This document shows positions 1,990-5,901 of a stretch of DNA of 6,189 nt, piece by piece. The stretch comes from Anaerolineales bacterium. Its GTDB lineage: Bacteria; Chloroflexota; Anaerolineae; Promineifilales; Promineifilaceae. Where the stretch lies: assembly GCA_020432595.1 (NCBI GenBank), contig JAGQGA010000346.1, forward strand, positions 1 through 6,189. The letters run 5' to 3'. Position 1 is the stretch's first letter. Each line of letters begins with the position of its first letter. The position numbers were made by a program, and so were the translations under genes. The notes beneath the pieces are model-generated. The model was given only the letters and a program-made list of their open reading frames with translations. It was not told the DNA's origin and did no database searches.

Positions 1990-2062
1990 GGGAACATCAC
2001 GGCCGTTTTTCTCACCCTCTCACAGCACCATAACCGAAAATCGCCAATTTACCTATCCCCGC

Positions 2063-2068
2063 TATAAT
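2063..2068 (+). promoter_or_regulatory. perfect -10 box just upstream of the prepilin peptidase start
   Basis: TATAAT ends 6 nt before the ATG at 2075. The usual distance from -10 box to +1 would put the transcript's first base at or next to the ATG, suggesting a leaderless mRNA. There is no clear -35 at the right distance and no purine-rich ribosome binding site before the ATG. Confidence 0.4.
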
Positions 2069-2074
2069 CAGCAG

Positions 2075-2755
2075 ATGCTCACCGCTGTCTGGTTTATCCT
2101 GGGTTTACTGCTTGGTATTGGCATCAACGGGCTGGCCGATTTTCTGCCCCACTATCGGCTGCAACCCGCTTTGATACGGCCGTTTTTTTCCTATTTCCAC
2201 CCGCCCCGCAGCAGCCGCGACTGGCTGACGCTGGCAGCAACGGCCGTTTTTCTCGCCCTTCTCACCACCAACACCCAGCACTGGCTCACGCTGCCGTTCA
2301 ACACTCTCTACATCGCCATTCTTATTCTCATCATCGTCATTGATTTGGAGCATAAGCTCATTTTTAACCAGGTGACGTACCCAGGAACGGCCGTTGTCCT
2401 GCTCGGCAGCTTTTTGGTTGACGATAACAGCATTGGGCTGGCACTGGCAGGAACGGCCGTTGGCGGCTTCATTTTCTACGTCATCTACTGGGTTGGCAGC
2501 CGGCTCTTTGGCGACGGGGCTCTCGGCTTTGGCGATGTCAAACTTGCCATGCTCCTGGGAGCCATGCTCGGCTTCCACCGCATCTTTTTTGGCCTGCTGC
2601 TCGGCGTGTTGCTCGGCGGTCTCATTAGCCTGCTGCTGCTGCTTACCCGCCGCGTCTCCCGCCACGATGCCCTCCCCTACGGCCAATATTTGGCGCTGGG
2701 TGGCATTGTTATGCTTATTTGGGGGCAAGAGATCATTGCTTGGTATTTGGCGTGA
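2075..2755 (+). CDS. type A24 prepilin peptidase, short form
   Basis: A 226-residue polytopic inner-membrane aspartyl protease of the PilD/TadV type, which removes leader peptides from type IV pilin-like precursors. The two catalytic aspartates are visible: Asp90 in VIDLEHKLIFN, and Asp154 in the GxGD motif of ALGFGDVKLA. Hydrophobic stretches suggest about six membrane segments (near 2-20, 51-65, 77-90, 103-115, 125-142, 160-195). The N-terminus (GLLLGIGINGLADFLP) echoes the GSFLNVVIYRLP element of full-length enzymes, but no CxxC pairs follow, so the zinc-binding, N-methylating domain is missing or degenerate; it may be a cleavage-only enzyme. The frame extends upstream to a TTG at 1979, but that codon lies in the hairpin and the extra residues are not family-like, so the ATG at 2075 is chosen. 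No pilin or secretion genes are visible, so the partner system is unknown. Five copies of the ACGGCCGTT palindrome lie in or just before this gene. Confidence 0.85.
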   Translation: MLTAVWFILGLLLGIGINGLADFLPHYRLQPALIRPFFSYFHPPRSSRDWLTLAATAVFLALLTTNTQHWLTLPFNTLYIAILILIIVIDLEHKLIFNQVTYPGTAVVLLGSFLVDDNSIGLALAGTAVGGFIFYVIYWVGSRLFGDGALGFGDVKLAMLLGAMLGFHRIFFGLLLGVLLGGLISLLLLLTRRVSRHDALPYGQYLALGGIVMLIWGQEIIAWYLA

Positions 2756-2765
2756 CCAAACAAGA

Positions 2766-2838
2766 AGTAATCAGTAAACGGTAATCGGTAATCGGTCAGT
2801 AGCGCACTGGTTACCGATGACTGATTACCGATTACCGT
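2766..2838. repeat. heptamer-based hairpin between prepilin peptidase and GNAT genes
   Basis: Two 21-base arms (2778-2798 and 2818-2838) are complementary except for one G-T position, which would be a G-U wobble in RNA; the loop is 19 nt. The arms consist of tandem TAATCGG/TAATCAG-type heptamers, and related units begin at 2766. It shares the 15-mer CGGTAATCGGTAATC (2779-2793) with the repeat at 4925-4939. The stem ends 9 nt before the next start codon. There is no downstream T-run, so a terminator role is doubtful. Confidence 0.8.
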
Positions 2839-2847
2839 CTAGCGTAA

Positions 2848-3735
2848 ATGAGTGAATTACAAATACGGCCGTTAACCACCATGGCCGACATTGAACAAGT
2901 ACGGCACGTGCAAATGGCAACGTGGGGCATGGCGGCCGAGGAAACGATTCCGCCCCACACCCTCCATGCCTTGCAGCATCATGGCGCGTCGTTGCTGGGG
3001 GCGTTGGACGGCGACCGAGTGTTGGGGTTTGCTTTTGCCGTGCTTGGCACAATGGACGCACCCGATGAGACGGCGGCAGCCGAGCGGCTCAAGCTGTATT
3101 CGGTGGCAACCGGGCTGCTGCCGGGCTACCAGCAAACAGGGGCGGGCTACCGGCTGAAGCTGGCGCAGCGGGAATTTGCCAACCGGATTGGCGTGCGGTT
3201 GATTAGCTGGACGTATGACCCGTTGATGAGCGTAAACGGCCGTTTTAACATCCACAAGCTCGGCGGGGTCGTCTCCACCTATCACCGCAACTTTCACGGC
3301 ACCATGAGCGGGGTGAACGCCGGGTTGCCCACCGACCGCTTTGAAGTGGATTGGTGGGTAGCGAGCGAACGGGTGCAGGAAAGGGTGCTGGGGGAAAAAC
3401 GGCCGTTGTCTCTTGCCACCCTTCTCAACAGCGGCGCAACGCTGCTCAACCCCACCCAATTCAGCAACCACGGCCACCCCGTCCCACCCGCCACCGTCAA
3501 CACAGAGGGCAACAATTCCGCCCTGCTGGTTGAAATCCCTGCCAATTTCACCGCCCTCAAAACGGCCGATTTTGCCCTAGCACAGCAGTGGCGGCTCCAC
3601 ACCCGCACCCTTTTTGAAACCTTATTCCACCGTGGCTACACCGTCACCGACTTTGTGCAAAGCACCGACGGGCAGCCGCGCAGCTTCTATTTGTTAACAC
3701 AACAGACGCAACCTATTGAATTACCTATGAAATAG
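2848..3735 (+). CDS. COG3375-type GNAT acyltransferase, likely amino acid N-acyl (N-succinyl) transferase
   Basis: A 295-residue cytoplasmic protein of the GNAT superfamily, which transfers acyl groups from acyl-CoA to amines. The GNAT fold covers about 4-170: IRPLTTMADIEQV, then GFAFAVLGTM, and the CoA pyrophosphate loop around LPGYQQTGAGYRLKLAQRE (Q95-Q96-T97-G98-A99-G100), a variant of the usual Q/R-x-x-G-x-G/A. Diagnostic for the COG3375 group are LISWTYDPLMSVNGRFNIHK (118-137), NAGLPTDRFEVDWW (157-170) and the late WRLHTRTLFETLFHRGYTVT (248-267). Members are often annotated only as predicted acetyltransferases. The racemase gene 64 bp downstream suggests the acyl group is succinyl and the acceptor an amino acid; this is inference. 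A stop codon immediately precedes the ATG, so the start is certain not to lie further upstream. No Shine-Dalgarno is present; a hairpin ends 9 nt before it. Confidence 0.83.
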   Translation: MSELQIRPLTTMADIEQVRHVQMATWGMAAEETIPPHTLHALQHHGASLLGALDGDRVLGFAFAVLGTMDAPDETAAAERLKLYSVATGLLPGYQQTGAGYRLKLAQREFANRIGVRLISWTYDPLMSVNGRFNIHKLGGVVSTYHRNFHGTMSGVNAGLPTDRFEVDWWVASERVQERVLGEKRPLSLATLLNSGATLLNPTQFSNHGHPVPPATVNTEGNNSALLVEIPANFTALKTADFALAQQWRLHTRTLFETLFHRGYTVTDFVQSTDGQPRSFYLLTQQTQPIELPMK

Positions 3736-3751
3736 AACGCTGCATTTCCCA

Positions 3752-3778
3752 AATCAGGAAAATCAAGAAAATCTGCGT
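3752..3778. repeat. three 9-bp tandem units in the GNAT-racemase gap
   Basis: AATCAGGAA, AATCAAGAA and AATCTGCGT lie head to tail, the third degenerate. They occupy part of the 64-bp gap between the two genes. No hairpin or promoter was recognised here. Confidence 0.4.
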
Positions 3779-3789
3779 CCTATTTCCCC

Positions 3790-3794
3790 AGGAG
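3790..3794 (+). promoter_or_regulatory. ribosome binding site of the racemase gene
   Basis: AGGAG, 5 nt before the ATG at 3800. Confidence 0.7.
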
Positions 3795-3799
3795 AACCC

Positions 3800-4930
3800 A
3801 TGAAAATCGAAAAAATTGATCTCTATCACATCACCCAATCCCTCGTCAGCCCCTTCACCACCAGCTTTGGCACCGAGCTAGACCGCCACTGCCTCATCTT
3901 GGCGCTCTATGCCGACGGGCTGGTGGGCTGGGGCGAATGCGTGGCTTCCACTGACCCCGGCTACAGCTATGAAACCACCGAAACCGCGTGGCACGTTCTC
4001 ACCAAGTTCCTCATTCCCAGCGTGCTGGGCAAGGAGCTGGACGAGCCGGAGCAGGTGCAGGGATGGATGAGCCAGGTGCGTGGCCACCCGATGGCGAAGG
4101 CAGCGATTGACCAAGCGGCGTGGGACATTACCGCCCAGCGGGATGGGCTGTCGTTTGCCCAAAAATTGGCACTACCCTATCCCGAAGGGCCACGGGAACA
4201 GGTGTCGGTGGGGGTCAGCAACGGCATCCAGCCGTCGGTGGCCGACACGCTCAAGGTGATTGAAGGGCGGCTAAAGGAGGGGTATCGCCGTATCAAGCTG
4301 AAGATTAAGCCGGGGCATGATTTGGAACTGGCACGGGCGGCAACGGCCGCTTTTCCCGATGTGGCGATTATGTTGGATGCGAATTCGGCTTATACGCTGG
4401 AAACGGCCGTTCCCATCTTCCAGGCCATGGACGACCTCAACCTGCTCATGATTGAGCAGCCGCTTGCCCACTACGACATTCTTGACCATAGCTTGCTCCA
4501 CCCGCAAATTAAAAACCCGCTCTGCCTCGATGAAAGCATCCACTCCGACCACGACACCCGCCTCGCCATCACCCTCAACGCCTGCGACATCATCAACATC
4601 AAACCCGCCCGCGTTGGTGGCTTCACCAACGCCCGCAAAATCCACGACCTGTGCCGCGAAGCCGGCATCGCCGTCTGGTGTGGTGGAATGCTCGAAACCG
4701 GTGTCGGTCGCGCCGCCCAGCTTGGCCTCGCCTCCCTCCCCGGCTTCACCCTCCCCGGCGACATTTCTGCCACCGAACGGTATTACAAGCGCGACATCAC
4801 GCAAAACTTTACCCTCAACACCGAAAACAGCACCATTGACGTGCCAACCGGCCTCGGCCTCGGTATTGAAATTGATTTCACCCAGTTGGAAGAGGTGACG
4901 GTGCGGAAGGAAACATTTAGTAATCGGTAA
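3800..4930 (+). CDS. menC: N-succinylamino acid racemase / o-succinylbenzoate synthase (enolase superfamily)
   Basis: A 376-residue cytoplasmic enzyme of the NSAR/OSBS subfamily. Such enzymes either dehydrate SHCHC to o-succinylbenzoate (menaquinone synthesis) or racemise N-succinylamino acids; many do both. The N-terminal capping domain (about 1-125) has the substrate loop SPFTTSFGTE (17-26). The barrel carries the full active site: Lys166 and Lys168 in RIKLKIKPG, the Mg ligands Asp193 (MLDANSAY), Glu219 (IEQPL) and Asp244 (CLDES), and Lys268 (INIKPARVGG). Arg271, three residues after that lysine, corresponds to an arginine reported to favour racemase activity in the Amycolatopsis enzyme. 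No other menaquinone gene is nearby, while an acyltransferase gene sits directly upstream, so the racemase role is preferred; menC is the usual symbol but may mislead. Start supported by AGGAG. The last three residues (SNR) and the stop come from the downstream repeat. It carries one exact and one near copy of the AACGGCCGTT palindrome. Confidence 0.87.
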   Translation: MKIEKIDLYHITQSLVSPFTTSFGTELDRHCLILALYADGLVGWGECVASTDPGYSYETTETAWHVLTKFLIPSVLGKELDEPEQVQGWMSQVRGHPMAKAAIDQAAWDITAQRDGLSFAQKLALPYPEGPREQVSVGVSNGIQPSVADTLKVIEGRLKEGYRRIKLKIKPGHDLELARAATAAFPDVAIMLDANSAYTLETAVPIFQAMDDLNLLMIEQPLAHYDILDHSLLHPQIKNPLCLDESIHSDHDTRLAITLNACDIINIKPARVGGFTNARKIHDLCREAGIAVWCGGMLETGVGRAAQLGLASLPGFTLPGDISATERYYKRDITQNFTLNTENSTIDVPTGLGLGIEIDFTQLEEVTVRKETFSNR

Positions 4931-4989
4931 TCGGTAATCAGTAATCAGTAAGAGTTGTACCGATTACTGATTACTGGTCACCGATTACT
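4919..4989. repeat. heptamer-based hairpin between racemase and proC
   Basis: Two 31-base arms (4919-4949 and 4959-4989) are complementary at 25 of 31 positions around a 9-nt loop. They consist of tandem TAATCGG/TAATCAG units and resemble the hairpin at 2778-2838. The left arm overlaps the last codons and stop of the racemase gene; the right arm ends 11 nt before the proC ATG. There is no T-run. Confidence 0.8.
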
Positions 4990-5000
4990 GCCAAAATGAT

Positions 5001-5819: not shown

Positions 5820-5828
5820 TTTATCGGA

Positions 5829-5890
5829 CGCGGACGAACACGGACGAACACGGACAATAGGAAATCCGCGTTTGTCTGCGTTCGTCCGCG
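5829..5890. repeat. decamer-based hairpin between proC and galE
   Basis: Two 26-base arms (5829-5854 and 5865-5890) pair at 22 of 26 positions around a 10-nt loop. All four differences are transitions; two would still pair as G-U in RNA. The left arm contains CGGACGAACA twice in tandem (5831-5850) and a partial third copy. The T-rich but interrupted sequence after it (TTCTGTTTTC) could give weak termination of proC transcripts. Confidence 0.78.
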
Positions 5891-5901
5891 TTCTGTTTTC
5901 T

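Follow-up and report, generated by a model that had tools for sequence, protein, structure and literature searches.

A HIP-like palindromic octamer with lineage-specific dialects across a family of Chloroflexota

The stretch of DNA analysed here (6,189 bases of contig JAGQGA010000346.1, from an Anaerolineales bacterium of the Chloroflexota; hereafter the window) carries repeated copies of the palindromic octamer ACGGCCGT. Counts in related genomes identified this octamer as a highly iterated palindrome (HIP)-like element which is family-wide and occurs in several lineage-specific forms, or dialects. That the constraint acts at the level of the DNA is strongly supported by the genome-wide excess, by copies in all codon phases and between genes, by synonymous retention between orthologues and by the amino-acid changes that accompany the element. 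A DNA-level constraint resembling that of the cyanobacterial palindrome HIP1 had been proposed in the initial annotation of the window, and the same lines of evidence bear it out.

Results

On the plus strand of the window, ACGGCCGTT was counted nine times (Table 1), and the full palindrome AACGGCCGTT was present around six of the nine copies. Matches on both strands numbered 15 against a shuffle mean of 0.10, with none of 200 shuffles reaching 15, and ACGGCCGT occurred 9 times against 0.12 expected from an order-2 Markov model with the element masked. The plus-strand count and the shuffles confirmed the nine copies, six as a 10-bp palindrome, that had been read from the sequence at the outset. 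The codon phases assigned at that time also stood. The copy at 1999 is probably intergenic, since it would fall within an open frame only with a start at the TTG at 1979.

All genome-wide counts were made in relatives, not in the window's own genome, using a family sample of 52 genomes (the family of G001, Chloroflexota) and a class sample of 396 genomes. ACGGCCGT was present at 991-2102 copies/Mb in 27 of the 52 family genomes, here called rich, and at 421 to 514 copies/Mb in three more. Among the class genomes, more than 1,000 copies were found in family members only, the top counts outside the family being 430 and 408; this class-wide comparison covered ACGGCCGT and no other palindromes. 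The letters of ACGGCCGT in reverse order were counted 4 to 886 times in each of 51 family genomes, and 3,665 times in the remaining one, G003. In the genome sample that was ranked, 400 kb of G010, ACGGCCGT was the most over-represented 8-mer (767 copies against 15.8 expected), and its masked observed-to-expected ratio in this genome was 79. As supposed from the window, the count in relatives lay far above expectation and was not confined to one locus. The 10-mer had initially been taken as the unit, but what the family has in common is the octamer. AACGGCCGTT accounted for 84% of the ACGGCCGT copies in G025 (2,503/2,984), 82% in G026, 35% in G001 and only 6% in G010 (877/14,867), and is a lineage-specific extension, or sub-dialect, of the family-wide octamer.

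The copies were spaced more or less at random (the gaps had a coefficient of variation of 1.14 in G010 and of 0.90 in G017), and regular spacing was rejected, none being seen in the gap analysis of these two genomes. The bases flanking the element were variable in most genomes examined. Many other palindromic hexamers were strongly avoided in the samples of G010, G017 and G049 (for example GGGCCC, 3 against 220.8 expected in G010; CCCGGG, 0 against 66.7 in G017), and the element therefore stands out against a general avoidance of palindromes. The lowest octamer density among 20 sampled stretches, 0.85/kb, was that of L151 (contig C11 of G010), the long genes of which may, we presume, resemble a BREX defence cluster.

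The CGGCCG core is constant in three of the four octamers of the family, and the outer base pair is lineage-specific. TCGGCCGA reached 9,414 copies in G017 and 7,668 in G019, where ACGGCCGT occurred merely 198 and 85 times; 12,040 copies of GCGGCCGC were present in G049, and 3,665 of TGCCGGCA but 14 of ACGGCCGT in G003. The flanking sides in G017 were A or T on 856 of 890. In small samples of G024, G051, G052 and G055 the CGGCCG hexamer was found at 3.8 to 7.6 times expectation with a weak flank preference. G024 held the A, T and G octamers at 1,727, 1,326 and 1,462 copies, and the dialects are therefore not mutually exclusive in this genome. On a UvrC tree of 28 genomes (10 of its 25 inner branches open), the six states required 7 changes, where 200 shuffles averaged 11.5 and none was as low. 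A 64-kb sample of G003, the TGCCGGCA genome, contained CGGCCG 8 times against 54 expected, as though the core of the other dialects were shunned there.

With open reading frames called by a longest-frame rule, the octamer in 400 kb of G010 exceeded a synonymous-codon shuffle 5.4-, 14.2- and 30.1-fold at the three codon offsets, and 90 intergenic copies were found against 94.9 expected by length. The samples of G017, G003 and G049 also presented an octamer excess at every codon offset; intergenic copies numbered 50 against 47.2 expected in G017 and 4 against 7.6 in G003.

The element goes with amino-acid changes, including in the repair gene uvrC. The commonest coding context in G010 was Thr-Ala-Val (360 of 676 coding copies), a tripeptide which occurred 375 times against 54.1 expected from composition (6.9-fold), Val-Ala-Thr occurring 48 times. 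The octamer coded for 360 of these 375 Thr-Ala-Val, where codon usage predicts 15%, for 221 of 244 Asp/His/Asn/Tyr-Gly-Arg (5% predicted) and for 95 of 432 Arg-Pro (0.4% predicted). Ser-Ala-Glu (180 against 34.2 expected) and Ser-Ala-Asp (131 against 39.6) were in excess in G017, and Ala-Ala-Ala in G049 (60 against 17.6), the other five samples also being 1.1 to 2.3 times over. A milder bias was observed in G040, a genome without the element, where the octamer coded for 12 of 19 Thr-Ala-Val against 24% predicted. At column 1059 of the UvrC alignment, 7 of the 28 genomes had Thr-Ala-Val, for which the octamer was the coding sequence every time, and the other 21 had Lys/Arg/Gln-Ala-Val/Ile; Arg at column 838 was found only in the three genomes that have the octamer there, and at column 958 it was present with the octamer in two genomes and without it in six.

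Where the amino acids were conserved between orthologues, 54 of 58 octamers were kept at 45-60% protein identity, 138 of 147 at 60-75% and 104 of 106 at 75-90%, and 14-31% of other octamers were identical (each pair was counted both ways in this first comparison, and UvrC recurs). The initial annotation had suggested comparing related genomes for conservation of the motif where the protein differs. With each open reading frame used once, 42 of 46 octamers were kept with conserved amino acids, against 31, 20 and 20% of the controls. Control octamers with the same amino acids were few; those for Thr-Ala-Val were kept in 0 of 7 cases and those for Arg-Pro in 0 of 11 below 75% identity, 10 of 20 at 75-90% and 4 of 4 above 90%. 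Copies within 150 bp of another were kept in 46 of 48 cases and isolated copies in 102 of 110, figures which use overlapping pairs. Variants one base away from the octamer at the six inner positions numbered 122 against 136.5 expected in G010 and 96 against 117.0 in G017.

The strength of the force was estimated with a standard fixation model, in which gain relative to loss equals e to the power S. The observed-to-expected ratio of 79 in G010 corresponds to S of about 4.4, and to factors of 4.45 for gain and 0.055 for loss. Simulation at S = 4.4 gave a ratio of 76, 1.69 copies/kb, a ratio of 0.99 for one-base variants and a retention of 0.92-0.94, with 0.21-0.31 of control octamers identical. 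As S was set from abundance and the simulated retention matched that observed, one number fits the abundance and predicts the retention. The observed loss factor was 0.038-0.078, and under this model the loss of sites would be about 13 to 26 times slower than that of control octamers. A setting with weak retention and high gain also fitted the abundance and the counts of one-base variants, and is disfavoured by the retention data alone. For dialects other than that of G010, S was taken as the logarithm of the observed-to-expected ratio in small samples. The value of about 4.4 is the figure that any proposed mechanism has to meet.

The IMG/VR database was scanned for two close copies of ACGGCCGT, and loci with 8 or more copies at a density of 1 copy/kb or above were considered dense. 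At least 16 dense loci were found among the 120 listed, the other 104 missing one or both thresholds, a few of them through a short stretch. The dense loci included L291 (ParA-type ATPase, RadC, antirepressor and FtsK-like genes; the same contig as L339) with 49 copies in 13.2 kb, L321 (ParB-like) with 47 copies in 13.2 kb, L279 (terminase small subunit) with 44 copies in 14.7 kb and L332 (portal, terminase) with 14 copies in 7.1 kb against 0.06 expected. Thr-Ala-Val was coded by the octamer in 86 of 89 cases in the ten IMG/VR loci examined. Some of the octamer-dense contigs may be proviruses or plasmids. The close-pair scan with TCGGCCGA gave no dense locus among the 119 counted of those listed, and no viruses of the T dialect were found in it; one further locus listed, L298, stems from the ACGGCCGT scan.

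Candidate enzymes were sought in the 52 family genomes. PF00145 did not track the element, being present in 14 of the 27 rich genomes and in 10 of the 25 others (Fisher p = 0.42). PF01555, which did not track it either, matched 48 of the 52 genomes, 41 of them over cut-off. In these two methyltransferase families, the only ones searched, G010 had no PF00145 match and all of its PF01555 matches were below cut-off. G046 had no PF00145 match either; its lack of a PF01555 match over cut-off, like that of G010, follows by elimination from the best E-values among the matches listed. The methylase target envisaged in the initial annotation is unsupported by the results for these two families. The PF01555 control gave no match in Synechococcus elongatus, two families were searched and the completeness of the family genomes was not stated; a Synechocystis-type GG-m4C-C methyltransferase could therefore be missed. 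PF01555 matches were unevenly distributed, with 19 to 27 per genome in G007, G008, G013, G021, G022 and G035 and 0 to 4 in several relatives. Vsr was present in 8 of 52 genomes and did not track the element, and C-to-T-type one-base variants in G010 stood at 1.49, 1.08 and 1.27 of expectation; an origin as a product of very-short-patch repair was rejected on the distribution of Vsr and because these variants were not depleted. DndC was over cut-off in 5 of 52 genomes, all five rich, and did not track the element. MutS_I likewise did not track the element; it was detected in 42 of 52 genomes and was not found in six of the 27 rich ones (G001, G005, G006, G025, G026 and G039).

Table 1. Copies of the octamer, its 10-bp extension and its core in the window
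Feature	Position	Strand	Plus-strand start of ACGGCCGTT	Codon offset	Residues	Context
ACGGCCGT, next base T	1999..2006	.	1999			probably intergenic
ACGGCCGT	2176..2183	.	2176	2	Arg-Pro	prepilin peptidase gene
AACGGCCGTT	2239..2248	.	2240	0	Thr-Ala-Val	prepilin peptidase gene
AACGGCCGTT	2386..2395	.	2387	0	Thr-Ala-Val	
AACGGCCGTT	2452..2461	.	2453	0	Thr-Ala-Val	
ACGGCCGT	2865..2872	.	2865	2	Arg-Pro	gene without Pfam match
AACGGCCGTT	3235..3244	.	3236	1	Asn-Gly-Arg	
AACGGCCGTT	3398..3407	.	3399	2	Arg-Pro	
AACGGCCGTT	4402..4411	.	4403	0	Thr-Ala-Val	enolase-superfamily gene
CGGCCG core outside the octamer	2933..2938, also 3563, 4344, 5258	.				

Pfam matches over cut-off in the window were to a prepilin peptidase, an enolase-superfamily enzyme, a pyrroline-5-carboxylate reductase (ProC), the start of an epimerase and a MarR regulator; DUF1801 and a transposase domain matched below cut-off, and the gene at 2848-3735 had no Pfam match. 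The 14 best relatives of the ProC protein (70-74% identity) were all from metagenome-assembled genomes, labelled Chloroflexi, Anaerolineae, Anaerolineales, Ardenticatenia or Ardenticatenaceae, with L012 labelled Gemmatimonadales. Positions 1-1998, in which the weak transposase, MarR and DUF1801 matches lie, contained no CGGCCG; this left part of about 2 kb could be a recent arrival, or its lack of the core could be due to chance. Two intergenic inverted repeats of a GTAATCGGTAATC-like unit were present at 2764-2838 and 4918-4992, and AATCGGTAATC occurred 24 times in 14 of 518 sequences, the window included, several of them from G010 and G008. A further intergenic region (5821-5895) consisted of tandem CGGACGAACA units followed by their inverse, and CGGACGAACACGGAC was found in the window only among the 518 sequences compared.

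Discussion

The explanation we favour is that ACGGCCGT, a HIP-like element, is kept far above chance by a force that would be weak and uniform and would act for the complete octamer at any place where one appears. The data support sites that behave independently of their neighbours and are found in every codon phase, in intergenic DNA and in some viral or mobile sequences, and a force strong enough to go with amino-acid changes. This force could come from a putative host activity which, in the course of DNA repair, recombination or replication, recognises the palindrome and biases which allele survives, in the manner of a conversion-like drive, and the preference of this activity for the outer bases would shift between lineages. 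We lean towards such a drive over weak selection, while giving it somewhat less than an even chance of being correct. Several results weigh against it. Without the amino-acid condition, only 51 of 97 copies were common to orthologues. One-base variants at the outer pair were in excess (182 against 90.9 in G010, 2.0-fold; 138 against 30.9 in G017, 4.5-fold), those between genes in G010 were slightly over expectation (inner, 18 against 12.7; outer, 10 against 5.3), and G049, unlike G010, had 2 intergenic copies against 12.9 expected. No candidate driver enzyme emerged among PF00145, PF01555, Vsr, DndC and MutS_I, and the modelled S separates neither drive nor biased conversion from weak selection.

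Weak additive selection, under which the copies would be binding sites of a genome-wide protein (nucleoid, segregation, repair loading or self-recognition) and each would be slightly helpful, is a serious possibility, if a less probable one. A nucleoid-protein site, which the initial annotation had also suggested, is possible. The model with S = 4.4 fits it equally, selection has been reported to maintain HIP1 (Xu et al. 2018, cited in the excerpted text of PMC6604393), and the octamer is dense in some viral contigs, as would be predicted for a self-recognition mark. Such selection would have to act at thousands of sites that are indifferent to genes and to one another, and a density-dependent function should lead to poorer retention of clustered copies, a difference that was not observed. 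The model of Elhai 2015, methylation-directed mismatch repair, in which repair would prefer alleles whose core carries the mark of a cytosine methyltransferase, is improbable for this family. It would account for a core hexamer with a variable outer pair, as in cyanobacteria (PMC4390886, in part), the wide occurrence of MutS_I fits it and a GG-m4C-C methyltransferase is described from Synechocystis (PMC6604393, in part); the distributions of PF00145 and MutS_I among rich genomes, that of Vsr among the 52 genomes, and the results for G010 and G046 argue against it.

A DNA uptake sequence, also raised when the window was annotated, with dialects like those of the Neisseriaceae, is very unlikely. 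Dialects, a density of the same order and the prepilin peptidase gene in the window would agree with it, though such genes are common. The octamer is palindromic, is dense in contigs with phage genes and, in G010 and G017, presented no excess of inner one-base variants, whereas an uptake sequence of A. pleuropneumoniae has 947 against 86 (table in the excerpted text of PMC1939737); this last test is weak because a HIP1 10-mer in that table also has 1830 against 160. An origin in codon usage, protein motifs, a dispersed repeat family or chance is hardly credible. That Thr-Ala-Val is the commonest coding context counts in favour of such an origin, but chance, codon usage and protein motifs were rejected by the shuffles, the synonymous shuffles, the octamer-coded Thr-Ala-Val and the retention, and the masked Markov expectation, the intergenic copies and the variable flanks also speak against this group of explanations.

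A further reading, which is on balance doubtful, would hold that HIP-type DNA arose outside the cyanobacteria and works without methylation. A host repair or recombination activity, switchable in its specificity for the outer bases, would impose one palindrome on resident DNA, including viral and plasmid-like DNA, and would thereby rewrite the proteome according to dialect (Thr-Ala-Val, Ser-Ala-Glu/Asp or Ala-Ala-Ala).

The cause of HIP1, an element known since 1995, is still debated, and a leading model relies on cyanobacterial methyltransferases. A second clade, with four octamers, core-only relatives and non-carriers, makes the cause of HIPs testable by comparison, and a host gene that tracks dialect should be the driver. 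The octamer-linked amino-acid changes, as in uvrC, matter for the interpretation of substitutions in such genomes.

In the excerpted text of Elhai 2015 (PMC4390886), HIP1 (GCGATCGC) and its alternates in cyanobacteria occur at about 500-2500/Mb, deviate at the outer pair and are associated with methyltransferases. The Chloroflexota element is alike in being a palindromic octamer, in its density, in its presence in coding and non-coding DNA, in its laxer outer pair and in having alternates that replace one another among relatives. ACGGCCGT is a palindromic top 8-mer within the same density range, spread through all codon phases and non-coding DNA (though intergenic copies were below expectation in G049), and it is conserved between relatives beyond protein constraint. 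It is not HIP1 proper, as its sequence is ACGGCCGT and not GCGATCGC; ACGATCGT, with the central pair changed, was found once in the G010 sample. The two differ in phylum and in core (CGATCG in HIP1, CGGCCG here), and no shared methyltransferase was found in PF00145 and PF01555, the two families searched. For the Chloroflexota element, the clustering of dialects on the UvrC tree of one family, the effect on the proteome and the viral presence were measured here; the word 'phage' was not found in the searched text of PMC4390886.

The uptake sequences of Neisseriaceae and Pasteurellaceae are likewise short, dense words whose spelling shifts among relatives (PMC3630211, in part), but they are non-palindromic (PMC1939737, in part). 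Mobile elements of Neisseria have atypical distributions of uptake sequences (PMC7371117, in part), whereas some viral contigs here are denser in the octamer than host chromosomes. Chi sites are also over-represented octamers linked to repair; that of E. coli, GCTGGTGG, is non-palindromic and occurs 1008 times against 151 expected (PMC1939737, in part). The repetitive palindromes of Caldithrix abyssi are over-represented as well, but are 18 bp long, with 38 exact copies, and mostly intergenic (PMC5317091, in part). No report of a HIP element in Chloroflexota was found in the literature searched, which left out most subscription papers. A family-wide HIP-like element with dialects is thus of a known kind, and the clade, the sequence and the measured effect on proteins are new.

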